From: Gemmatimonadota bacterium
Lineage (GTDB): Bacteria > Gemmatimonadota > Gemmatimonadetes > Gemmatimonadales > GWC2-71-9
Assembly (NCBI GenBank): GCA_029262155.1
Contig: JAJCZW010000002.1
Span: 1-47,615, forward strand
Length of the DNA: 47,615 nucleotides
Direction: 5' to 3'
Notes under the pieces: model-generated
The model's input: only the letters and a program-made list of their open reading frames with translations
Told to the model about the DNA's origin: nothing
Databases searched by the model: none
Shown here: positions 16,720 to 28,948 of the stretch, in pieces
How the letters are laid out: every line of letters begins with the position of its first letter
Numbering within the stretch: the first letter of the stretch is position 1
Translations under genes and position numbers: made by a program

Positions 16720-18972
16720 ATGGGAATAGTCAATCTCAACAAGCTTTTCCCCCGACTCACGATCCGTGCAAAGCTGACCACGGCGTTTCTTCTCTTGGCT
16801 CTGATGCCGCTCGCCGTGGTTGCAGCGGTCACCACCCAGGTAACGATAACACGTCTCCGCAGAACGGCTTCCGAAGGGCTCCAACGCGAGGTGGAGGCGT
16901 CGCAAGCCGCGGTCGCTCTTGCGCTCAGTCGGGTCGAGCAGGATGTCGAGTTCTTGCGCGATGCCTACCTCGTCTCCGTCCTCCAATCGCGGGAACCACT
17001 GTCGGCAGGATCCGAGTGGGCCATTCGTGAGTTTCTCGATCATGCGCCGTTTCTCTTCCGGGTCAAGGCAATTACTCCTGACGGAGTCACTCGGTTTGAA
17101 GCAGGTCCTCCCAGTGGCCCCGGTGGTGATGGGTACTACTACGTATTTCGGGCCGAGAAGCTCGGTGCCCTTGATCGCCTGTCGCTTCCAGTCGAAGTCC
17201 TGTCCGTCGACCCGCTGACCAAGGCCGCCCAAGCAGTGCCTGCGGTTGCGACCCTCATCCCCCTTCGAAACAACGAGGGGGATTTTCTTGGTGTGGTCGT
17301 CGGGGAGGCCTACGCTTCCACCCTCTTCAGTAGTCTCGAACGGATGGCCACGATTCTTCCCGAAGCGACGACCGGCCTGCTCGATCCGAGCGGCCGGTTT
17401 CTGTATCATTCGGACAACAAGCGCACCTGGGAGAGTTTGCTTGGTCCGGCGGCAGATGAAACCCTCCCACGGCAACTTCTCTCCCTTCGTGGGAGCGGGT
17501 CCCCGGCGCGGGCCGGTGGATACCTCGTGAGTGCTCGATTGATACGGCTCGGACCGGAACCGGAAGAAGAACTGACGGTCTTTCGGATGATCTCACTCCG
17601 GGTTGTGGATGGACCGATCCGTTCATTCCTCTTCGGGGTGATTCTCATGGGGGGGAGCGTTCTTCTTGTTGTGCTTGGCCTCGCGCTGGTCGCCGCCCGG
17701 CAACTGACTCAACCGATCTACCAACTGCATCGAGCGGCGAACCAACTTGCCAGCGGTGCCGACCCCGAACCACTTCATATCACTACCAATGATGAATTAG
17801 AGGATTTTGCCGAAAACTTCGAAGTCATGGCGCGTGCCCTCGTGGGGCGCCGCCGACAGCTGGAAGAGAAGGTGTCGGAACGGACCCAGGAGCTCGTTCA
17901 CCTCCACTCCGAACTGAGCGGGCTGGTCACGCACTCTGGAGATGCGATCATCAGTCTGGATGCTGGAGGAACGATACGCGGGTGGAATCAAGGGGCAGAG
18001 CATCTCCTGGGATGGAGTAGAACGGAGGTGATGGGACGTTCCTGCATCGACGTGCTCGCGGCACCCGCTATGATTCACCCATCGGAGCGCGGTTTCCTGG
18101 AACGCGAGTTGGCCCGGCGGGGGGCGATTGTCGATTTCCAGACCCGGCGATTGGCGAAGGACGGAACTCCCCTCCGCGTCTCCTTGACCCAAACGGCGGT
18201 CATTGGTCCGAACGGAAATCAGGTCGGGTCCAGTATGACTCTGCGCGACGTCTCGGTGCGGGAAGATCTGGAGCAGCACATGCGTCGCTCAGAGCGTCTT
18301 GCGGCGATGAGTGTGATGGCCGCTGGGCTTGCGCATGAGATTAACAACCCGATCGCGATCATTGGGAATCGACTTGAGGTTATGGAAGCGGAACTTCAGG
18401 ACTTGGGCCAAGGAGCATTGTTGAACGATGTGGAGGTTCTTCGGGGACACACCCGACGACTGGCCGATCTCACGAGCAACCTTCTCCGGTTTGCCCGGGA
18501 TCCCGAGGAATCGCAGGGGCCTATCGCCCTCGTCCCGATTGCTGAGCGGGTGCGGGATCTTCTTGCACCAACATTTGAAACTCGGAACGTCCGAGTGACC
18601 CTTTCCTCGACCGGAGAAGGGACGATAGTGGGTGTCACCAGTGCCGTGGAAACGGTGTTTCTCAATCTCTTGCTCAATGCCGCCGATGCGATGTTAGGTG
18701 GGGGTGAGGTCGACGTGACAATCGACCATGAAATGGAAACTGTTCGGATTGTCGTTGCCGACACAGGTCCGGGAGTACCCAAGGAATTGCGCGAGCGCAT
18801 CTTTGAGCCGTTTTTTACAACCAAGGATAGTCGTCGTGGGACCGGTCTTGGGCTCTCGCTGTGTCGCAGCATTGTCGAACGACTGCGAGGGAGGATTTGG
18901 GTCGAGCATGCCCCTGGGAAGGGAGCCCGTTTTGTCGTCTTGCTGCCCCATGCTGGTGGCCCATCCGCATGA
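16720..18972 (+). CDS. Membrane sensor histidine kinase with extracytoplasmic, HAMP and PAS domains
   Basis: Two-component sensor of 750 residues. Order: first membrane helix (about 20-42), a large extracytoplasmic sensor domain of about 260 residues (Cache-like in size), second helix (about 307-328), HAMP (330-385), a coiled coil, PAS (about 405-515), HisKA with the phosphorylated His539 in AGLAHEINNP, and the ATPase domain with N box NLLLNAADAM, DTGPGVP and GTGLGLSL. The HEINNP form is typical of NtrB-type kinases that pair with sigma54 activators. Its stop overlaps the start of the adjacent NtrC-type gene (ATGA), so they form a cognate pair. The periplasmic sensor and the neighbouring redox genes suggest it reads a redox, metal or electron-acceptor signal; the ligand is unknown. 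Confidence 0.92.
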   Translation: MGIVNLNKLFPRLTIRAKLTTAFLLLALMPLAVVAAVTTQVTITRLRRTASEGLQREVEASQAAVALALSRVEQDVEFLRDAYLVSVLQSREPLSAGSEWAIREFLDHAPFLFRVKAITPDGVTRFEAGPPSGPGGDGYYYVFRAEKLGALDRLSLPVEVLSVDPLTKAAQAVPAVATLIPLRNNEGDFLGVVVGEAYASTLFSSLERMATILPEATTGLLDPSGRFLYHSDNKRTWESLLGPAADETLPRQLLSLRGSGSPARAGGYLVSARLIRLGPEPEEELTVFRMISLRVVDGPIRSFLFGVILMGGSVLLVVLGLALVAARQLTQPIYQLHRAANQLASGADPEPLHITTNDELEDFAENFEVMARALVGRRRQLEEKVSERTQELVHLHSELSGLVTHSGDAIISLDAGGTIRGWNQGAEHLLGWSRTEVMGRSCIDVLAAPAMIHPSERGFLERELARRGAIVDFQTRRLAKDGTPLRVSLTQTAVIGPNGNQVGSSMTLRDVSVREDLEQHMRRSERLAAMSVMAAGLAHEINNPIAIIGNRLEVMEAELQDLGQGALLNDVEVLRGHTRRLADLTSNLLRFARDPEESQGPIALVPIAERVRDLLAPTFETRNVRVTLSSTGEGTIVGVTSAVETVFLNLLLNAADAMLGGGEVDVTIDHEMETVRIVVADTGPGVPKELRERIFEPFFTTKDSRRGTGLGLSLCRSIVERLRGRIWVEHAPGKGARFVVLLPHAGGPSA

Positions 18973-20360
18973 ACGAGATTCGCGTGTTGGTGGTCGACGA
19001 TGAGCCGGACATGTTGGACAACTGCCGACGATTGTTGTCCCGGCAAGGGTACACTGCTAGGACCCTCCAGGACCCGACCCTGGTTCAGCAGATGCTACAC
19101 GAGGATCCTCCCCACGTCATCTTGCTCGATCTCAAGATGCCCCAAGTAGACGGCATGACGGTCCTGGCCACGGTGCTCGCCCACGATGCCACCCTTCCCG
19201 TCATCATTATGACAGCATTCGGGTCGGTGGCGTCGGCGGTCGGCGCCATACGAGAGGGTGCGTTTGATTACCTCACCAAACCGTTTTCGCGTGAACAACT
19301 TGCCGTGGCCGTGGACCGGGCGGTTCGCTATCGACGGCTCGTCCTGGAGAATCGCGCGTTACACGCGGCCGCGGATCAGAGTGCGGTAGAGCAACTCATT
19401 GGTCAGAGCCCGGCGTTGATCCACGCCCTGTCTGATACCCGACGGGTGGCTCCGAGTGAAGCCAACGTCCTCATTCTTGGGGAGAGCGGGACGGGGAAGG
19501 AGCTCATTGCCCGATGTGTGCATGAAATGAGTGCTCGTGCGAAAGGGCGGTTCATGGCGGTGGATTGTGCATCCTTGCCCGAGGCGCTCTTGGAAAGTGA
19601 ACTGTTCGGGCACGAGCGGGGTGCTTTTACCGGAGCGATCCAACGAAAAAGAGGCCTCCTCGTGGAAGCCGGTGGCGGGACGGTGTTTCTCGACGAAATC
19701 GGGGAGTTGTCATCAACGGTACAAGCGAAACTCCTCCGCGCCTTGGAAGCGCGAACTGTTCGCTCGGTGGGTGGGACACAGGAACAGCCCATTGATGTCC
19801 GCTTCGTGGCGGCAACGAATGTCGATCTTGAGGCGGCAGTGCACGAAGATCGCTTTCGGTCCGATTTGTACTACCGCCTGAACGTCGTCCAAGTTGTCCT
19901 TCCGCCCCTTCGGGGCCGGGAGGGGGATATCTCACTGCTCCTTGATCATTTCCTGTCCCATTTTAGCCATTTGATGGATCGGCCTCCTCCCCAGATCTCC
20001 CCCAATGCACAACACGCGCTCGATTCCTACTCCTGGCCGGGGAATGTTCGTGAACTTCGGAATCTCGCGCACCGACTCGTAGTGCTCGACGAGGACGGTA
20101 TCATCACGGTGTCTGACTTGCCGCTCACCATCCGTGGGAAGTCGCCGGAACGAGGGGAGAAGGCCAAGCGGGAACCGTTGGTGTATGAGGTGGCTCGTGA
20201 TCGGGCAATGACAACTTTCCTCGGAGATTATGTTCGCCGTCTTCTCGATGCGCACGGTGGCAATATCTCCAAGGCGGCTGAGACGGCCGGCGTGAGCCGT
20301 CGGACGGTGCACCGCTGGGTTGCGGAGTTAGAAGGGACAGATTCGGGAGTGCGATCGTGA
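18969..20360 (+). CDS. NtrC-family sigma54-dependent response regulator
   Basis: Transcriptional activator of 463 residues: receiver domain with phosphoacceptor Asp54 (LLDLKMP), central AAA+ domain with Walker A GESGTGKE, the sigma54-contact loop GAFTGA, Walker B region FLDEIGE and the arginine-finger segment FRSDLYYRLNV, then a Fis-type helix-turn-helix (NISKAAETAGVSRRTVHRW). All residues needed for open-complex formation by sigma54 polymerase are present. The ATG at 18969 overlaps the kinase stop; the ORF could be extended upstream in frame but this would lie inside the kinase gene. The likely target is the sigma54 promoter at 22443-22458, about 2 kb downstream, in front of the cytochrome genes. 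Confidence 0.93.
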   Translation: MNEIRVLVVDDEPDMLDNCRRLLSRQGYTARTLQDPTLVQQMLHEDPPHVILLDLKMPQVDGMTVLATVLAHDATLPVIIMTAFGSVASAVGAIREGAFDYLTKPFSREQLAVAVDRAVRYRRLVLENRALHAAADQSAVEQLIGQSPALIHALSDTRRVAPSEANVLILGESGTGKELIARCVHEMSARAKGRFMAVDCASLPEALLESELFGHERGAFTGAIQRKRGLLVEAGGGTVFLDEIGELSSTVQAKLLRALEARTVRSVGGTQEQPIDVRFVAATNVDLEAAVHEDRFRSDLYYRLNVVQVVLPPLRGREGDISLLLDHFLSHFSHLMDRPPPQISPNAQHALDSYSWPGNVRELRNLAHRLVVLDEDGIITVSDLPLTIRGKSPERGEKAKREPLVYEVARDRAMTTFLGDYVRRLLDAHGGNISKAAETAGVSRRTVHRWVAELEGTDSGVRS

Positions 20361-20950
20361 TGATGCTGAGTCTGGTTGTGTTCGGGCTGGTGCAAGCGAG
20401 TGGAGCCGGAGGATCGGTGACGGGCATCCTTCGAGGAACACCGAGGGACTTGCTGGAGACAGTGATTTATCTTGCACCAATCGGCGAGCGTGGAGCGGAT
20501 CTCGGCTCGCCGGATTCCCTTCTGATCGATCAACGCGGATTACGCTTTTGGCCTCGGGTCGTCATGGTCCCAACTGGGGGGACGGTCCTGTTTCGAAATA
20601 GTGATCCCATCCTACACAACGTGTTTAGCCCCGGCGTGGGGCCGGAATTCGATCTCGGGACCTATCCCCGTCCCGATTTTCGACCCCACACATTCCAGAC
20701 TGCGGGTGTGCACGTCATGCTGTGTCATATCCATCCTGAAATGGCCGCGTATATCGTTGTCGTACCGGGGGGACAGGCTGGGGCGGTCGACGAGCGGGGT
20801 CGCTTCCGGTTCGACAGCGTCCCGCCCGGTGCCTACCAGCTCGTTGCGTGGCGACCTCGCAGAGTTCCAATCCGCCATGATCTTGTGGTTGCCATCGGGA
20901 CGGCGACGTCGGTGGAACTTGATCTTTCGAACGCCCAACGGCGAAGGTAA
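20357..20950 (+). CDS. Exported type-1 copper protein (cupredoxin) with a beta-sandwich tail
   Basis: Periplasmic blue-copper-type protein, 197 residues. Copper ligands fit a type-1 site: His87 in LHNVFS, Cys123, His126 and Met129 in LCHIHPEM. A short signal peptide precedes it. After the cupredoxin fold (to about residue 137) a small carboxypeptidase-regulatory-like segment follows (DERGRFRFDSVPPGAYQL). The start is either GTG 20357, which overlaps the regulator stop (GTGA), or ATG 20360 (TGATG); both imply translational coupling. Two bases separate its stop from the Cyc2-like gene, so it is probably the periplasmic electron partner of that protein. This is inference from order; the fold assignment is firm. 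Confidence 0.85.
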   Translation: MMMLSLVVFGLVQASGAGGSVTGILRGTPRDLLETVIYLAPIGERGADLGSPDSLLIDQRGLRFWPRVVMVPTGGTVLFRNSDPILHNVFSPGVGPEFDLGTYPRPDFRPHTFQTAGVHVMLCHIHPEMAAYIVVVPGGQAGAVDERGRFRFDSVPPGAYQLVAWRPRRVPIRHDLVVAIGTATSVELDLSNAQRRR

Positions 20951-20952
20951 GC

Positions 20953-22302
20953 ATGCTAAGCCCCATCCTTCTTGTCCTTCTCGCCAGCACACCCCCCGAG
21001 CGAAATGTCCACGCCAGCATTCCGGCCTTTGCGAGGCGGTATCGCGTGAGTTGTGCTCGCTGCCACACGGCCGCGCCGAAACTGAATGTGATGGGTGAGG
21101 CCTTTCGGCTGAATGGGTATCGGTTCCCTGAGACCGAACCGGTCACCGACGAGGAACCCACGGTACCCCTTGGCGAAGAGCCATGGCGGGACTTGTGGCC
21201 ACGAGCCATTTGGCCAAGCGACCTTCCCGGCTCGGTTCCGTTGGCGCTGCGGGTTCAGCTGGAAACGGAGGTCTCCAAGGATGAGCAGGGTCGAACCGGG
21301 GTCGATTTTCTATTCCCTCGCGAGATATACCTCCTCGGGGGAGGGAACTTGGGAGAAGAAATCGCTGTGTTTTTCGAATCTGAGTGGAGTCGGGAGGAGG
21401 GGCTGGAGGTGCTGCAAGCGAAGATCGGGTTTCAGCGCGTTCTCCCTGCCCTCGGTGAACGTTTCCTGAATATCTGGGTCGGGTTGCAAAACCTCTACCT
21501 GTTCACCTTTGCCGACCGCCAGATCGACCGGGCTGGCCGGAGTGGGTTTTTGTGGCAGCGGTTTCGGTCGGGACAGGTTCCACTCCCAGGGTCCGCGGGA
21601 CCGGTCGCTCCCACCAATGGGTTCCGTCTCGGGATGACGCAGCCCACCGTTGAGATCAATGGGCTTCCTTCACCGAGTTCGTATTACGCGATTGGTGTTG
21701 CGCAAGGCGGAACGGAAACGACCAGAGATAACAATCGGCGCAAGGATGTCTACTTCAAACTGCGGTACAAGTTCGGTGGGCTCAGGTTAGACGGCACCTA
21801 CGGGGCAGGCGGTGGTCCAGTACTCGGGAGTTTCGGGCAGTACCTGGATCGATCGCTCATTGTAGAAACCTTTGGGTATCTGGGTAGTGAACCCGACCCC
21901 GCCGGAATCGAGAGCCGACACCGGGCAGTCGGTGTCAACGCCCGCCTTCTCCGCGGACCGCTCGATGTCGGTGTGGGTTTCGTCACCGGCCGCGACGATC
22001 ATCCCTGGGGCGTTGGGCTCGGGGCCCTTCGACACGAGAGCCTGTTTGCCAAGGGTGAGTACTTGCTCTACCCGTGGCTCATCGCGTCCGTCAAAGCGGA
22101 GACCTTTCGTCTCCGGAGCCCCGAGCGCCTTGGGGCCCCCCGTCAGTCGTTTCGTCAAGATCATGTGAGTCCCGGTATGATCGCCCTCATCCGACAGAAC
22201 GTACGCCTCGTTGCCGAGGCCGATCTCTTTGGGAGCTACGAGTTCCCCATTCGCCAGGAATCGCCTGAAGGGTTCTGGGTGCGGCTCGACTTCGCGTTTT
22301 AA
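20953..22302 (+). CDS. Cyc2-like fused monoheme cytochrome c / outer-membrane beta-barrel
   Basis: 449-residue protein with one haem-binding CARCH (Cys34, Cys37, His38) directly after the signal peptide, embedded in IPAFARRYRVSCARCH and followed by PKLNVMGEAFRLNGY. That surrounding pattern (PxFARxY, CxxCH, PKLN..G.AFR.NGY) is the one I associate with Cyc2, the outer-membrane iron oxidase, and with related porin-cytochromes of Geobacter-type bacteria. The remaining about 390 residues alternate in amphipathic strands and end in aromatic Phe (VRLDFAF), fitting a porin of about 16 strands. Cyc2 proteins are 400-550 residues, so the length agrees. It is the last gene of the kinase-regulator-cupredoxin unit and is followed by an intrinsic terminator. 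Direction of electron flow (Fe(II) oxidation or reduction of external acceptors) cannot be decided from sequence. Confidence 0.82.
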   Translation: MLSPILLVLLASTPPERNVHASIPAFARRYRVSCARCHTAAPKLNVMGEAFRLNGYRFPETEPVTDEEPTVPLGEEPWRDLWPRAIWPSDLPGSVPLALRVQLETEVSKDEQGRTGVDFLFPREIYLLGGGNLGEEIAVFFESEWSREEGLEVLQAKIGFQRVLPALGERFLNIWVGLQNLYLFTFADRQIDRAGRSGFLWQRFRSGQVPLPGSAGPVAPTNGFRLGMTQPTVEINGLPSPSSYYAIGVAQGGTETTRDNNRRKDVYFKLRYKFGGLRLDGTYGAGGGPVLGSFGQYLDRSLIVETFGYLGSEPDPAGIESRHRAVGVNARLLRGPLDVGVGFVTGRDDHPWGVGLGALRHESLFAKGEYLLYPWLIASVKAETFRLRSPERLGAPRQSFRQDHVSPGMIALIRQNVRLVAEADLFGSYEFPIRQESPEGFWVRLDFAF

Positions 22303-22442: not shown

Positions 22443-22458
22443 TGGCACGTCGAGTGCT
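22443..22458 (+). promoter_or_regulatory. Sigma54 (-24/-12) promoter for the cytochrome unit
   Basis: TGGCACG-TCGA-GTGCT matches the sigma54 consensus TGGCACG-N4-TTGCW with one mismatch; GG and GC are exactly ten bases apart, as required. It lies in the only long non-coding stretch of the locus, after the terminator and 84 bases before the start of the second cupredoxin gene. Transcription would begin near 22469. The leader between contains a perfect hairpin GTACCGC-AGTC-GCGGTAC and a second GC-rich one (CCGGG...CCCGG) just before the ribosome-binding site GGAGG (22518-22522). Confidence 0.7.
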
Positions 22459-22526
22459 CTACAAAGGGATGTACCGCAGTCGCGGTACCCGGGTCTCGGC
22501 CCGGTGGCACTCAAATCGGAGGAATG

Positions 22527-22931
22527 ATGGTTCGTCGTTTCGTAGGCCTTGTTGCCGTTGGAGCCGTACTCACGGGTACAGCGGCTTGGGTTGGGCACAC
22601 ACCGGCACCGGCCGGGCAGGTGATCGTGGTGAAAATGGTGGATGTGTCGGCCACCGAGTACAAGTACGTACCCTCCTCCGTGGCCGCGAGTCCGGGTGAC
22701 ACCGTTCGGTTTCTCCAGACTGGTACGATGCCGCACAACGTGCAGTTCAAGGTCGCTCCCGATGGTGCCAATATCGACGGCATCATGGTGGGGCCGTTTC
22801 TCACGTCACCGAACGAGACCTATGATCTCGTGATCGACGACCGTTTTGTGGCAGGCGAATTCCCGTTTGTGTGCACCCCCCATGAAGCCCTGGGAATGAC
22901 GGGTACGCTCACCATCACCCCTCGGTTCTGA
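22527..22931 (+). CDS. Plastocyanin/azurin-like cupredoxin
   Basis: Exported copper protein of 134 residues. Type-1 copper ligands are His70 (MPHNVQF), Cys116, His119 and Met124 in VCTPHEALGM, in the usual C-x2-H-x4-M order. Signal peptide MVRRFVGLVAVGAVLTG precedes it. The start is taken at the second ATG (22527) because GGAGG at 22518-22522 is too close to the ATG at 22524. It is the first gene after the sigma54 promoter and is followed 13 bases later by the NHL-repeat gene. By position it is a likely periplasmic or surface electron shuttle of the cytochrome unit. It is unrelated in detail to the larger cupredoxin at 20357. Confidence 0.85.
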   Translation: MVRRFVGLVAVGAVLTGTAAWVGHTPAPAGQVIVVKMVDVSATEYKYVPSSVAASPGDTVRFLQTGTMPHNVQFKVAPDGANIDGIMVGPFLTSPNETYDLVIDDRFVAGEFPFVCTPHEALGMTGTLTITPRF

Positions 22932-22944
22932 GAGGAGCCACACC

Positions 22945-24120
22945 ATGCGGCACCCAATCCTTCTTGCCCTCCTTCTCGGCCTTGGTGCCTCGGGTGCCAC
23001 AGCCCAGGAGGGGCCGGCGTGGCCAGCTCCTCCCGAAACGCCGCGGATTCGATTCGTCAGTGAACTCCGATCTGAGGTGGACTTGGGCAAGAAGGAAGGG
23101 TTCTTCGGAAAGCTGAAACGGAGCCTTACTGGCGAGCAGCAGGCAATGTTCGCCGTCCGCCGACCGTTTGACGTCTACTCCTTCGACGGAACCCACGTGT
23201 TTGTGTCGGATGGCATGAGTGCCGGCATCCTCCTCTTTGATTGGGAAAAGAAGGAGGCCCGTACCCTCGGTCGCGATGTTCCAGGTGGACTGGCACGCCC
23301 GATGGGGTTGGGTGGGGACGGAACGGGTCGAGTCTACGTGACAGATCCGGGGACCGGTCGAGTGATTGTGCTTTCACCCGAGGGTGCCTTCGAGCGAGCG
23401 TTCGGCGGGAGAGATGTGTTGTACAACCCCGTGGATGTTGCGGTTGATGGAGTTGTCGGTCGGGTGTATGTCGTCGATTCCTACCTCCACCAAGTCGTGG
23501 TGTTCGACGTTGCCGGGGCGGTCATTGGGCGTCTCGGAAAGCAGGAAGTGACGTTGGCTGACCGGAAGAACCAAATCTCCCACACGGTAGATGCACCGAG
23601 CATGGGCGGCGACGAGGCTCCACGCCAACACGCCCAAGCTGGCATCACATCCAAGGGGAAGGACCTCTGGCAGAACCGCGGCTCCGAGCCGGGCGAATTT
23701 CGCTATCCGGTGGCAGTCGCCGTTGGCCCAGACGGCATGGTGTACGTCTCCGACCAGATGAATTTCCGGGTGCAGGTGTTTGACCGGTTGGGGGCTTCGG
23801 TGAGGCAGGTTGGCCAAGCGGGGACAACGCCCGGATCGTTTGCCCGACCGAAGGGAGTGGCGGTGGATAGCGAAGGTCATCTGTATGTCGCTGATGCGGC
23901 GTTCAGCAACATTCAGGTGTTTGATCCCGATGGCACTCTACTCCTCGCCTTCGGTTCACTCGGGCACGGCCTGGGTGAACACTGGATGCCGTTAGGTCTC
24001 TGCATCGACCTGCAGGACCGAATCTATGTTGCCGACCGGTATAACAATCGGGCGTCGGTGTACCAGTATCTACCGGCACCGGCGAGCGCGGTCGTGGAAG
24101 GACCCGGTGCGTCGCAGTGA
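22945..24120 (+). CDS. Exported NHL-repeat beta-propeller protein
   Basis: 391-residue secreted protein with signal peptide (MRHPILLALLLGLGASGATAQ) and about six NHL-type blades. Repeats of the type RVYVVDSYLHQVVVFD, MVYVSDQMNFRVQVFD, HLYVADAAFSNIQVFD and RIYVADRYNNRASVYQ are easy to see, each preceded by a Pro-containing loop with VAV or VAVD. An N-terminal segment (WPAPPETPRIRFVSEL) precedes the propeller; I recall similar NHL proteins beside multiheme cytochrome genes in Geobacter-type clusters. It probably acts as a scaffold or assembly factor for the cytochromes; this role is inferred. Its last 14 bases overlap the pentaheme gene. Confidence 0.87.
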   Translation: MRHPILLALLLGLGASGATAQEGPAWPAPPETPRIRFVSELRSEVDLGKKEGFFGKLKRSLTGEQQAMFAVRRPFDVYSFDGTHVFVSDGMSAGILLFDWEKKEARTLGRDVPGGLARPMGLGGDGTGRVYVTDPGTGRVIVLSPEGAFERAFGGRDVLYNPVDVAVDGVVGRVYVVDSYLHQVVVFDVAGAVIGRLGKQEVTLADRKNQISHTVDAPSMGGDEAPRQHAQAGITSKGKDLWQNRGSEPGEFRYPVAVAVGPDGMVYVSDQMNFRVQVFDRLGASVRQVGQAGTTPGSFARPKGVAVDSEGHLYVADAAFSNIQVFDPDGTLLLAFGSLGHGLGEHWMPLGLCIDLQDRIYVADRYNNRASVYQYLPAPASAVVEGPGASQ

Positions 24121-24874
24121 CCTGCTCCACATCATGGGGGCGCTTGGCTTCGCCCTTGGGATCGGTCTAATGCATCCGACCCCGATGGCGGCCCAATGGC
24201 CCAACGGCTTTACGGTGGATCAGACGCCCCATAATTTGACGCGCCCGGCCTCCAGCACCGATCCGGACATGGTCGGTCGGATTCGAGACTACGGAGAAGT
24301 CTGTACCTATTGTCATGCGCCCCACGGCGGCCCGTCGTGGGGGGCGAGCCCTCGCGCCCCGCTCTGGAACCGCAACCGACCCAACGCCTCATATCGTATG
24401 CCAGAGCATAATGCCCAGAACATGTTCCAGGACCCTTCTCCCTCCGACCGGGCTCGCGTCTGTCTCTCGTGTCATGATGGTACCATTGGGTTAGATAACA
24501 TTGTCAACCGACCCAACACCTATGGTGGCCCCGGGCCCGCAAACCAAACGATCGATTCTTGCGAGGGGTGTCACTCCGGTGGAAATCCCGATGGTGGTAT
24601 CGATTGGGACGGGGTGTGGTTCCGGGATGACATGCGTAAACAACATCCGGTGTCGGTCGTGTACGACCCCTCCCGTCGACCGGGCGAATTCCAAGCTGGC
24701 TTAGGTGGCAGTGTGGGTCCGCTCCCGCTGTACAACGGGAAGGTGGAGTGTCAAACCTGTCACGAACCACACTCCCAGCAGTTCAAGTTCTTTCTGCGGA
24801 TCAGCAATGTTGGCAACTCGATGTGTCTTGTGTGCCATGTGACCCCGCCGACAGAGCCGGTGCATCAACGATGA
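24107..24874 (+). CDS. Exported pentaheme c-type cytochrome
   Basis: 255 residues with five CXXCH sites: Cys66-His70, Cys119-His123, Cys152-His156, Cys215-His219 and Cys240-His244. It shares its layout with the tetraheme protein downstream: CxYCHxPHGG near the start, APLWNR, CLSCHDGT, a HPVS segment, PLYNGKVECQTCHEPH and a final FLRxSN...CxxCH; the extra haem (CEGCHSGG) is the insertion. The start is the GTG at 24107, with GGAAGGA five bases upstream, giving a basic signal peptide (VRRSDLLHIMGALGFALGIGLM); the ATG at 24134 would lack the charged N-terminus. This CHxPHGG/CLSCHDGT/PLYNG pattern is the one I remember for OmcE-type nanowire cytochromes, but I cannot confirm orthology. Confidence 0.88.
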   Translation: MRRSDLLHIMGALGFALGIGLMHPTPMAAQWPNGFTVDQTPHNLTRPASSTDPDMVGRIRDYGEVCTYCHAPHGGPSWGASPRAPLWNRNRPNASYRMPEHNAQNMFQDPSPSDRARVCLSCHDGTIGLDNIVNRPNTYGGPGPANQTIDSCEGCHSGGNPDGGIDWDGVWFRDDMRKQHPVSVVYDPSRRPGEFQAGLGGSVGPLPLYNGKVECQTCHEPHSQQFKFFLRISNVGNSMCLVCHVTPPTEPVHQR

Positions 24875-24896
24875 TGCCCTCTCGACGGCATGTCCC

Positions 24897-24920
24897 TCTC
24901 TGGAAACAGAGAAAGGAGGT
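24897..24920 (+). promoter_or_regulatory. GAAA-tetraloop hairpin and very strong ribosome-binding site
   Basis: TCTCTG-GAAA-CAGAGA (24897-24912) forms a perfect six-pair stem with a stable GNRA-type loop. It runs directly into AAAGGAGGT (24912-24920), a near-perfect Shine-Dalgarno eight bases before the tetraheme ATG. A weaker hairpin (ATGCC...GGCAT, 24874-24891) precedes it. Together they look like an element that stabilises mRNA and raises translation of the tetraheme protein relative to its neighbours. Confidence 0.5.
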
Positions 24921-24927
24921 AGTACCG

Positions 24928-25587
24928 ATGCGAAGAACCACTACCCGGTATGGTCCTCGTCTGGTGGCCCTGATGAGTCTGGGGGCCTTGGTCGCCGTCC
25001 CAGTCAGCGCCCAGGATGACGTCGCCAATACCAAACACAACATGAGTACCCGTTCGGGTCTCACCGACTATGGGGCTGTCTGTGTGTATTGTCACACCCC
25101 CCATGGTGGGCAAACCCAGAATGCTCCGCTCTGGAACCGGAACTTCCCGACCGGACCATTCACGATGTACAACAATGCGTACAGTTCCACGATTGACATG
25201 ACCGTCGATGCCGCCCCGACAGGGGTGTCGTTGGCATGCTTGTCTTGTCATGACGGAACTGTCGGATTGGACGTCATCATCAACAAGCCGAACACTGACA
25301 CCACCTTGGTCGGCTCCGGCAATACGATGCCGTCGAATAGCGGACAGCGATTCGCGAACCTCGGAACGGATCTCCGTGACGATCACCCCATCTCGATTCT
25401 GTACAGTAACGCGGCGGACGTCATGTTCAATGCGGCGTCAGGTGGGAAGATCAACAACGAGCTTCCGCTCTACAATGGCAAGGTACAGTGCGGGACTTGT
25501 CACAATCCGCACACGACGTTGCAGGCGGCATTCCTCCGGAAATCCAACTCTGGCAGCCAGCTCTGCAAGACCTGTCATATCAAGTAG
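24928..25587 (+). CDS. Exported tetraheme c-type cytochrome (OmcE-like pattern)
   Basis: 219 residues: signal peptide (MRRTTTRYGPRLVALMSLGALVAVPVSA) and four CXXCH sites, Cys52-His56, Cys104-His108, Cys188-His192, Cys213-His217. Extra conserved His outside these motifs (TKHNMS, CHTPHGG, DDHPIS, NPHTT) can supply axial ligands. Length, haem count and motif order (CHTPHG, PLWNR, CLSCHDGTVGLD, NLGTDL.DDHPIS, PLYNGKVQC, FLRKSNS.S.LCKTCH) resemble the tetraheme filament cytochrome OmcE of Geobacter as I remember it. In that group an axial His can come from the next subunit, so the protein polymerises. It has the strongest ribosome-binding site of the locus. Filament formation here is a hypothesis. 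Confidence 0.9.
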   Translation: MRRTTTRYGPRLVALMSLGALVAVPVSAQDDVANTKHNMSTRSGLTDYGAVCVYCHTPHGGQTQNAPLWNRNFPTGPFTMYNNAYSSTIDMTVDAAPTGVSLACLSCHDGTVGLDVIINKPNTDTTLVGSGNTMPSNSGQRFANLGTDLRDDHPISILYSNAADVMFNAASGGKINNELPLYNGKVQCGTCHNPHTTLQAAFLRKSNSGSQLCKTCHIK

Positions 25588-25595
25588 GGGAACGC

Positions 25596-26510
25596 ATGGC
25601 TGATCGGAGGAGGCGATTCAGGATGGCCTGGTGGGTGGTTGCCCTGTCCGTTGGGGGAGCCGCCTGTCGGGCTGCACTCAACTCCGTCCTGGATATTCCT
25701 CCTCCGAAGCCGGCCCCCCCGGCCACCGCCACGCCCGTGGCGATAACCACCAACCCGTCAGGAACGCTTCTCCCACCGGTGGAGGCGGACACGATCCGTC
25801 CCGTGATTGAATCAGTTCCTCGGGATTCGGCGGTCGCGCTCCTCCCACGGGATCACGCCGGCAATATTGATTGGGCCGAGGCGCTTCGGAACGGTACGAT
25901 CGCACCGCGTAGCAAGCTCCCGGGACAGGCGGCCCCGCCGGTAAACGGTTTTCAATTTGCCTTCGATTTTACCTACAAGGGACTGGATACTCTCTTCGAT
26001 GCTCGGGTTCCGCACTCCACGCATACGGAGTGGATAGCCTGTCAACAATGCCACCCCCGGATCTTCCCGTATCGGAACACGCCAGTCACGATGGGTGAGG
26101 TGTTTCAGGGAAAGCTGTGCGGTGAATGCCATGGGAAGGTGGCTTTCCCCCCGACGACGGGGTGTGAACGGTGCCACACACGGATGACAATGCCGGCCAA
26201 TCGGGCGCAACCAGTTCTCCTCGGTGATGTGACCTTGGGGCGGGTCGTTGACACGGCTGGTAATGCCGGCAAGGTTGATGTGGGGGGCCTCCCACGGGCC
26301 GTGTTCCCGCACTGGGTCCACCGAATGCGATACCGATGCAAGGTCTGTCACATGGAGGTGTTTGAGCCTCGAGTGGGGGCCAACGTAGTGACCATGCGTG
26401 CCATCGCAGACGGACAATTCTGCGGAGCCTGCCATGACGGGGCCACCGCGTTTCGTCCCTCCATCGACAACTGCCAACAATGCCATCGCGGGACCGTGAA
26501 AACCGACTGA
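25596..26510 (+). CDS. Hexaheme lipoprotein with two c7-type triheme domains
   Basis: 304 residues. A lipobox (SVGGAAC, Cys24) predicts lipid anchoring; a Pro-rich linker of about 90 residues follows. Then come two triheme c7-type domains: CXXCH at Cys149, Cys175, Cys190 and at Cys248, Cys276, Cys293. Each domain begins with His-rich PHxxH (VPHSTHTEW; FPHWVHRMR) and repeats the pattern CxxCHxxxF...MG/MRA...G..CG.CH...AF....C..CH, as in the triheme domain known from Geobacter. The start at 25596 is eight bases after the tetraheme stop. Its stop TGA shares a base with the ATG of the beta-barrel gene (TGATG). It is a good candidate for the periplasmic or intra-barrel wire of an outer-membrane conduit. 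Confidence 0.88.
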   Translation: MADRRRRFRMAWWVVALSVGGAACRAALNSVLDIPPPKPAPPATATPVAITTNPSGTLLPPVEADTIRPVIESVPRDSAVALLPRDHAGNIDWAEALRNGTIAPRSKLPGQAAPPVNGFQFAFDFTYKGLDTLFDARVPHSTHTEWIACQQCHPRIFPYRNTPVTMGEVFQGKLCGECHGKVAFPPTTGCERCHTRMTMPANRAQPVLLGDVTLGRVVDTAGNAGKVDVGGLPRAVFPHWVHRMRYRCKVCHMEVFEPRVGANVVTMRAIADGQFCGACHDGATAFRPSIDNCQQCHRGTVKTD

Positions 26511-28441
26511 TGCGGCAGGCCCAGCGTGGTGCCTACGGCATCGTGCTGTTCCTGGTGCTCACCAGTACGCCCTCGCTAGTGGGGCAACAGATACCCTTGC
26601 GGCTCGGCCGGGGCGGGGAATTGGGGATGACGTTCGGGTCAGATCGGTTGCGTATTGAACGGGATTTCTTGAACACGGGCTCCGACCGGTCGGTATGGCT
26701 TAAGTTTCCTATCAGTGGTTTTCTGCTTACTCCCGAGCTGCTGAGTTTCAACGTCGAACTTCGCCCGACTCGGGTCTGGCAGGATCAGGATGCGTTCACA
26801 GGTACTCAGCAGTTCAACCAACTCAACATGGCCTATGGGGTCAGCATCTTTCCGGGGCGCACCCTATCGCTTTCCCTCAACGGCTCGCGGGTTGATGCGA
26901 CGACGCACGGGGGGCCCGGAGGGCGGAGAGAATCCAACCAGCGTCAATTCGGGGCCCAGGTCTGGCTACGGTTCCGCCCACTCCCTATCCAGGCATCGTA
27001 CCGGCGACAGCTCTACAACGATACCTGGACACCAGATCCGGGCGTCACGTTTCCGTTCCAAAATGCGGTCATCCTGAAGTCGTATCAGATCACGGCGACC
27101 AACTCCAAGCTGTCGCTCCAAGCGCAACGAACCACCTACGATGATCTGGTGCGTGACCAGGATACCGAAACGTGGAGTGCGAACGGGGTCCATACCTTCC
27201 GCTGGGGTCGCGGAAGTCAACTCGAATCCACCATCTCCTTTTCCGATCAAACAGGGGCCTTCCCCAATTACCGGAGAGAGTGGTCCGAACGACTCAAATT
27301 GTATCACGCACGGACCGTCCGAACCGAATACACCTATGCGAGGACCCAGTTTCGGACACCTGGGGGGTTCGCGACCAACCGGTCATACAGCGCTGCGGCG
27401 AGCATCACGGCGATCCGTCGAGTTGGCCTCGGCATGTTGGTCGCAGGCAGTTCGAGCGAAAGTGCCGGCTCCGAAAACCGCTCTCTCTTGTTCGCCCCCC
27501 GCCTCGGGTTCTCCATTGGCCAGGTGCGGGGAGGACGGATCGAAGCCAACGCCCTTGTCGGATTTGAACGGCGGTCGGTGTTGGGGAACGGATCCGAGAT
27601 CCCCATTCTCGACGAACCGCACTCACTGTCGGCCGCACGAAGTTTTGCCCTGGAAGAGCCGGATGTAGTGGTGGAGACGATCGTGGTTCGGAGTGCCGAT
27701 GGCACCATTACCTATGTTGAGGGCCCGGATTATCGAGTCCTCCACGGTACCAGGATCACACGCATACAAGTTCCCCTTACAAGTCGAATAGACGTTGGTG
27801 ACCAGCTTCTTGTTAGCTACCGTGTCCTCGGGCTCGGCCGTGGTGAGGCGAACGGCTTGCGGGCCGATGTGACGGTGGCCGCCGAGTGGAAAGGGTTCAC
27901 ACTCCGACACCAACGATCACTGCGTCAGTCGCCCACTGAGGACGCTACGGTTACCAGGGCCTCGAATGATCGCCGTCTTGAGAACTTTGATGACACCCAC
28001 ACCCGACTGAGTTTCCGAGGCCGGTTACCACTGGGGAATCTGGACTTTGGTGCGGGAGTGAGAGATAGGTTGTTCGGCGACCACCGCGCCTTGGAGTATG
28101 AAGTGAGTGGTGGATTGGCCACCCCCCCCCTCGGGCCACTCACAGCCACACTGTACAGTGGGTGGACGTCGACGGAATCGGAGGAGCGCTCCCAGAAAAC
28201 CCTCTTTCTGTCCGCAGGGCTCGCTTGGAACATCGGCATTTTTCGATTCGACGGTAGTGTCGAACGCACCACAATCGAATCCAGCGATGTCGATCCGCAG
28301 CGGTGGATCATCGGACGCGGTACGGCCGCACTTCAGATTGAACGTGTCCTGGTGGAGGCTCGGGCGGAGTTCCTACGCGAACGGGTCCCGGTAGAGCGAG
28401 CCCGCTCGCGGCTCAGCCTCCGCGTGATTCGGCAGTTCTAG
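26510..28441 (+). CDS. Outer-membrane beta-barrel protein, candidate conduit porin
   Basis: 643 residues after translational coupling to the hexaheme gene (ATG at 26510). Signal peptide MRQAQRGAYGIVLFLVLTSTPSLVGQ; the rest is amphipathic beta-strand, rich in aromatic girdle residues and ending in Phe (SLRVIRQF). A soluble insertion at about residues 395-450 (RSADGTITYVEGPDYRVLHG...IDVGDQLLVSY) looks like an Ig-type beta-sandwich. No CXXCH is present, so unlike the Cyc2-like protein it carries no haem itself. By position and pairing it plays the part of MtrB/OmbB-type porins that sheath a multiheme cytochrome, though I see no direct similarity to MtrB. Last gene of the unit; the convergent FKBP gene ends three bases beyond. 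Confidence 0.8.
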   Translation: MRQAQRGAYGIVLFLVLTSTPSLVGQQIPLRLGRGGELGMTFGSDRLRIERDFLNTGSDRSVWLKFPISGFLLTPELLSFNVELRPTRVWQDQDAFTGTQQFNQLNMAYGVSIFPGRTLSLSLNGSRVDATTHGGPGGRRESNQRQFGAQVWLRFRPLPIQASYRRQLYNDTWTPDPGVTFPFQNAVILKSYQITATNSKLSLQAQRTTYDDLVRDQDTETWSANGVHTFRWGRGSQLESTISFSDQTGAFPNYRREWSERLKLYHARTVRTEYTYARTQFRTPGGFATNRSYSAAASITAIRRVGLGMLVAGSSSESAGSENRSLLFAPRLGFSIGQVRGGRIEANALVGFERRSVLGNGSEIPILDEPHSLSAARSFALEEPDVVVETIVVRSADGTITYVEGPDYRVLHGTRITRIQVPLTSRIDVGDQLLVSYRVLGLGRGEANGLRADVTVAAEWKGFTLRHQRSLRQSPTEDATVTRASNDRRLENFDDTHTRLSFRGRLPLGNLDFGAGVRDRLFGDHRALEYEVSGGLATPPLGPLTATLYSGWTSTESEERSQKTLFLSAGLAWNIGIFRFDGSVERTTIESSDVDPQRWIIGRGTAALQIERVLVEARAEFLRERVPVERARSRLSLRVIRQF

Positions 28442-28444
28442 CGG

Positions 28445-28948
28445 CTACGGATTGACGCCGAGCAACTCGACATCAAAGACCAACGTCGCGTTCGGCGGAA
28501 TCGGTCCCGCTCCCCCTGGTCCATATCCCAGGTGGCTCGGGATGACCAACTTTCGCGTCCCTCCGATTCGCATGCCGACCACTCCTTCATCCCACCCTTG
28601 GATGACCGAGCCAGCCCCGAGTCGAAAGGCAAAGGGTTCTGCCTCAACATTTGAGTCGAATGGGGTACCATCGGGAAGCCACCCGGAGTACCGCACGACC
28701 GCCTCCTGTCCAACTCCTACCGAATCACCTTCACCAAGCCGCATGTCCTGCCAAAACAGCCCCGATGCATTCCGGGTCATCTCAGTCAGGTTCACGCCCA
28801 GGTCGGCGTCATACGTCAGCGTTTCGGGAGCATCCGCGGCCAGGATCGCTGTGGTCACCTGATCGAGGTCACCGGCAGGAGGGGGGGCAGCGTCAGGGCT
28901 GCATCCGGCGGAGGCGAAGGCGAGGACTAGGAGCCATGGCTGTTTCAT
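28445..28948 (-). CDS. FKBP-type peptidyl-prolyl isomerase lipoprotein
   Basis: Exported prolyl isomerase, 167 residues from the ATG at 28948. A lipobox (AFASAGC) gives a lipoprotein. The FKBP domain (about 75-167) has the usual VVRYSGWLPDGTPFDSN, VIQGWDEGVVGMRIGG, RKLVIPSHLGYG and VFDVELL segments, so the active-site aromatic and Asp positions are kept. An upstream in-frame ATG at 29068 would place the signal sequence internally and is rejected. It is convergent with the beta-barrel gene, with only three bases between stops. A prolyl isomerase beside cytochrome genes may assist their folding, but it is on the opposite strand and may be unrelated. Confidence 0.9.
   Translation of the reverse strand: MKQPWLLVLAFASAGCSPDAAPPPAGDLDQVTTAILAADAPETLTYDADLGVNLTEMTRNASGLFWQDMRLGEGDSVGVGQEAVVRYSGWLPDGTPFDSNVEAEPFAFRLGAGSVIQGWDEGVVGMRIGGTRKLVIPSHLGYGPGGAGPIPPNATLVFDVELLGVNP

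Follow-up and report, generated by a model that had tools for sequence, protein, structure and literature searches.

In the window, the 47,615 nt that make up all of contig JAJCZW010000002.1 from a Gemmatimonadota bacterium, two adjacent genes on the plus strand specify a pentahaem and a tetrahaem cytochrome homologous to OmcE, the filament-forming cytochrome of Geobacter sulfurreducens. They are located between the gene for an NHL protein and genes for a probable cytochrome-porin pair. This locus probably constitutes an extracellular electron-transfer module, in which an OmcE-like filament of the tetrahaem protein would stand on a porin-cytochrome conduit and the pentahaem protein would be found at the end of the filament.

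The tetrahaem gene (24928 to 25587) begins with an ATG at 24928, which is preceded by AAAGGAGG, and encodes a probable filament subunit of 219 amino acids with four haem motifs, CVYCH, CLSCH, CGTCH, and CKTCH. A signal-peptide-like start is present on this protein as well as on the pentahaem protein. In a phmmer search across all PDB chains, full-length matches were obtained to OmcE (PDB 7tfs, E=5.8e-31) and to 9yuq, a putative multiheme cytochrome c with 16 chains (E=1.4e-26), and all further hits were weak or confined to short CxxCH stretches. With a profile built from 40 relatives, the values for OmcE and 9yuq were 6.1e-56 and 4.6e-50, respectively. OmcE was also the single fold match in the PDB to an AF2 model of the monomer (mean pLDDT 70; Foldseek E=2.2e-7, TM 0.61), by which the OmcE fold is assigned with moderate confidence. 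A sequence-only reading of the same stretch had noted a resemblance of the 219-residue, four-haem form to OmcE, and this resemblance is strong. Both proteins are alike in size and in the positions of four CxxCH motifs and four distal His. However, their identity is about 39%, they belong to separate subclades, and the tetrahaem is encoded in a cluster with c7 and barrel genes. For Geobacter, GSU0615-0617 are described as a single transcript containing a cytochrome gene. By its sequence, the tetrahaem protein is a newly found member of the OmcE family. The best reading is that it has a nanowire role, which would follow from homology to a filament former, homology being no proof of polymerisation.

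Comparison with archaeal filament cytochromes had been proposed together with that to OmcE, and gave a negative result: neither a sequence nor a fold match to the PcECN/AvECN type was obtained for the window proteins in any PDB search. The OmcS type was rejected as well, profile searches giving no more than marginal scores (E=0.02 and 0.0002). According to the literature, these proteins form filaments of stacked bis-His haems and may be regarded as work-alikes.

Inspection of 165 aligned modules revealed that the eight columns corresponding to the ligand His of OmcE are 96-100% conserved in the groups with four, five, and 10 or 11 haems. Following the predicted signal peptide, the tetrahaem protein contains exactly eight His, four in CxxCH motifs and four others, and therefore has no spare ligand. 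In OmcE, one His ligand of haem 2 is supplied by the adjacent subunit, as stated in PMC12203936; trans ligation is also mentioned in PMC9473688 and PMC12954529. The tetrahaem protein retains haem 2 (CLSCH, 25237 to 25251, plus strand) and all four candidate distal His. With the required residues present, we infer by analogy that its haem 2 receives a His in trans. After export, the protein would polymerise in the manner of OmcE, each subunit would hold four bis-His haems, and the His of the next subunit would complete haem 2 and thereby tie the chain together.

The gene directly downstream (25596 to 26510, plus strand) encodes a six-haem protein with two c7 triheme domains (TIGR04257, 6e-36, both domains), a possible lipoprotein and probable conduit cytochrome, which is the sole copy in the genome. 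It is followed by a gene (26480 to 28441, plus strand) for a 653-aa protein, a probable outer-membrane beta-barrel and probable conduit porin with homologues at the equal place in related clusters (best 3e-98). A structure search revealed no solved relative of this barrel. On the other side, the GTG start of the pentahaem gene overlaps the stop of a gene for an NHL beta-propeller protein (22945 to 24120, plus strand; PF01436, 2.2e-26). The NHL protein, the six-haem protein, and the barrel of about 650 aa would form or assemble an outer-membrane conduit.

Such arrangements are not restricted to the window. A genome scan revealed at least 502 stretches encoding relatives of the OmcE module in many phyla, and 74 loci for which 9 kb of sequence or more were available were surveyed, same-strand genes no more than 6 kb away being counted as neighbours. 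An NHL gene was detected in 58 of these 74 loci, a c7 gene in 31, a barrel homologue in 25, and a gene for a 10/11-haem protein in 30; the numbers are lower bounds, because detection relied on similarity to the proteins of the window. A cluster of NHL gene, module with four or five haems, c7 gene, and barrel gene recurs across phyla. The family is unevenly distributed among Gemmatimonadota: for most of the 298 genomes that were searched, no clear match was obtained.

Tetrahaem, c7 triheme proteins, barrel, and NHL protein are also the gene content given for Uet (undecahaem electron transfer) in PMC10734462, and the window resembles the Uet clusters of Tenderiales and Gallionella in having all of these together, with the barrel and the c7 protein identified through related clusters; the match is one of gene content and not of sequence comparison with published Uet proteins. 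The window differs from these clusters in the fusion of the triheme domains into one hexahaem protein and in the added pentahaem. No UetJ-type 11-haem protein was found in the draft genome containing the window (3.2 Mb, 90% complete), where only the tetrahaem and the pentahaem were detected, nor in its closest relative, G062. Uet clusters contain a prolyl isomerase (UetB); in the window, a gene for an FKBP-type peptidyl-prolyl isomerase (28445 to 28948) directly follows the barrel gene, but lies on the opposite strand.

Further genes on the plus strand are located upstream of the NHL gene. A gene for a sensor histidine kinase with PAS, HAMP, and HATPase domains (16720 to 18972, Pfam) is followed by genes for a sigma-54-dependent response regulator (18975 to 20360, Pfam/NCBIfam), a probable cupredoxin-like protein recognised by the sequence HNVFS ... 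CHIHPEM (20357 to 20950; in Pfam, only a weak CarboxypepD_reg match below the cut-off), a secreted protein in which a single CxxCH precedes a probable beta-barrel, Cyc2-like in layout only (20953 to 22302), and a plastocyanin-family cupredoxin (22524 to 22931; PF00127, 1e-13). No Pfam or NCBIfam family matched the protein encoded at 20953 to 22302; its relatives are present in 35 of 61 related genomes and are not tied to OmcE clusters. Pairs of kinase and sigma-54 regulator genes were found near OmcE-type clusters in eight loci (L015, L016, L019, L032, L064, L078, L089, and L091). A sigma-54-like -24/-12 site, TGGCACGTCGAGTGC (22443 to 22457, plus strand; one mismatch, a consensus match), is placed downstream of the sigma-54 regulator gene and upstream of the run of plastocyanin, NHL, and cytochrome genes. 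Only two sites of this quality occur in the window; L019, L032, and L085 have similar ones close to clusters of this kind. Scans for sigma-70 promoters and terminators remained at chance level.

It is quite conceivable that the module takes up electrons from outside, for example in Fe(II) oxidation, and that the CxxCH-barrel protein and the cupredoxins encoded upstream are its partners. This is a question of direction alone and does not conflict with a filament on a conduit. Two cupredoxin-type genes and the CxxCH-barrel gene directly upstream are consistent with it, as are two haem-copper oxidases in a genome in which no NapC/NirT-type quinol cytochrome was found, and Uet has been proposed for cathode oxidisers in PMC10734462 and PMC12575090. 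On the other hand, the upstream genes are not conserved beside other OmcE-type clusters, the link of the 20953 to 22302 protein to Cyc2 is one of layout, and OmcE itself serves electron release. Taken together, the oxidases, the missing NapC/NirT, and the nearby cupredoxins lean slightly towards uptake.

The pentahaem gene (24107 to 24874, plus strand) encodes a paralogue of 255 aa with a signal peptide and the haem motifs CTYCH, CLSCH, CEGCH, CQTCH, and CLVCH. PDB searches yielded 9yuq (3.8e-17) and OmcE (7tfs, E=1.6e-12), and in the alignment all eight OmcE His are retained. Its AF2 model is weak (pLDDT 57; best fold match OmcE, E=0.014), too weak to place the extra haem. All motifs that the sequence-only reading had listed as shared by the two cytochromes are indeed present in both and in equal order. 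That they differ by one inserted haem motif holds for the extra motif CEGCH (24560 to 24574), the third of five, which the alignment places behind haem 2 and ahead of the HPxS motif. The description was incomplete, however, since the pentahaem protein further differs by an 11-residue C-terminal tail, VTPPTEPVHQR (24839 to 24871), which contains a conserved His and is not present in tetrahaems.

Four members with such a tail were identified, those of the window and of L153, L152, and L148. Their chains extend for 11-12 residues past the last CxxCH and carry a His close to the C-terminus; the extra haem lies 32-33 residues after haem 2. Of 89 tetrahaems, 84 stop about two residues past their last CxxCH, as do nearly all other pentahaems. 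In all four loci, which belong to two phyla, the tailed pentahaem is accompanied by a tailless tetrahaem in its cluster. Among the His columns of the four members, no internal extra distal His common to the clade was found, so that the His in the tail is the most likely residue to provide the extra haem with its sixth ligand, unless it serves an end contact instead. No description of the tailed variant was found in the literature searched.

Pentahaem members of the OmcE family from Nitrospirota, Schekmanbacteria, and Acidobacteria likewise carry the extra haem after haem 2 and before HPxS, and the equal placement applies to pentahaems of many phyla with the exception of three in L085. Unlike the window protein, the members from these three groups are devoid of the C-terminal tail and often have a possible distal His about 10-20 residues ahead of the extra haem, and they do not form one clade with the window protein. 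The exceptional L085 (6259 to 10627) from a Desulfarculales MAG harbors four OmcE-type genes in a row, three for pentahaems and one for a tetrahaem; there, the extra haem of the pentahaems is placed after the HPxS His and represents a different insertion.

In a tree of 154 modules, the pentahaem clade, to which a long branch leads, is nested inside a tetrahaem clade, which supports the duplication suggested in the sequence-only reading. The four tailed pentahaems form a clade (support 100/100), and a clade of 12 rows (support 97/85) holds them together with the window tetrahaem. This topology fits a duplication that would predate the divergence of the Eisenbacteria locus from those of the Gemmatimonadota, or a transfer between them. 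The window tetrahaem groups with tetrahaems of Uet-like clusters, OmcE being placed in another subclade. A single origin of all pentahaems was rejected (AU test, p=6e-5). In the closest relative (L022/L153), the two genes follow each other as they do here and show 69-72% identity; since the pair and its order are kept and the eight His columns are conserved, the gene pair is not a chance arrangement. Values of dS were saturated against this relative, and therefore no dN/dS is given for this comparison.

The pentahaem protein would thus be a duplicated subunit altered at its end, by the tail with its His, and near its middle, by the extra haem. A special position is suggested by the tail, by the pairing with a tetrahaem, and by the fact that the pentahaem is conserved separately. 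This position is most likely a filament end, where the protein could link the filament to the conduit as an adaptor or form its outer tip, and would not be the bulk subunit. A more specific version, in which OmcE-type nanowires have the tailed pentahaem as a specialised end subunit that joins the conduit or caps the filament, and in which the UetJ-type 11-haem protein does this job elsewhere, is put forward only tentatively. It may also be that the His of the tail does no more than complete the ligation of the extra haem, which would count against an end role.

Alternatively, the pentahaem could itself be a bulk subunit, either of a second filament or mixed into the tetrahaem filament with the extra haem branching off as a side contact; this is possible, but appears rather doubtful. 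The eight retained OmcE His and the equally placed extra haem in many phyla rather than in one clade would agree with it. A related genome, G264, is instructive in this respect: its sole OmcE-type protein is a tailless pentahaem, which replaces the tetrahaem in an otherwise complete NHL-c7-barrel cluster. Five haems alone are therefore no mark of an end subunit. This protein has nine His only, leaving none for the extra haem. Yet it lacks the tail and is not firmly placed in the clade of the window pentahaem, the tail is found on that clade and on no tetrahaem of it, and the tailed proteins accompany a tetrahaem wherever they occur. That both proteins are soluble or surface multihaem carriers, acting between conduit and substrate or in the periplasm and sharing the fold and ancestry of OmcE, is unlikely: polymerisation is proven for few family members and the window tetrahaem is in another subclade than OmcE, but the four haems are matched by exactly four distal His, all of them conserved, one haem and one His would remain unpaired in a monomer if haem 2 is trans-ligated as in OmcE, and the entire cluster is of outer-membrane type.

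The occurrence of a tetrahaem filament candidate and a tailed pentahaem beside conduit genes in four genomes of two phyla provides a short list of candidates for roles in the start and the end of cytochrome nanowires and in their connection to the outer membrane, and an end-subunit function of the pentahaem, if true, would name parts of the nanowire base. A Gemmatimonadota locus is also added; in the literature searched, a single paper was found that names this phylum together with OmcE, and by its own account it did not investigate nanowires.

Further candidates for the filament base are the UetJ-type 10/11-haem proteins. In the 11-haem proteins, the first four haems constitute an OmcE module fused to seven more. 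The protein of L009 (7309 to 9351) and 43 further UetJ-type proteins begin with a complete OmcE module (residues 26-240, E=4.6e-34 to 7tfs). All eight His are kept in the 10/11-haem proteins, which form a single branch (support 99/98), and their genes often share a cluster with a free tetrahaem gene. In two genomes of the same family (L010, 1671 to 5896; L011, 3487 to 10875), 14-haem and 7-haem proteins are encoded beside tetrahaem, NHL, c7, and barrel genes.
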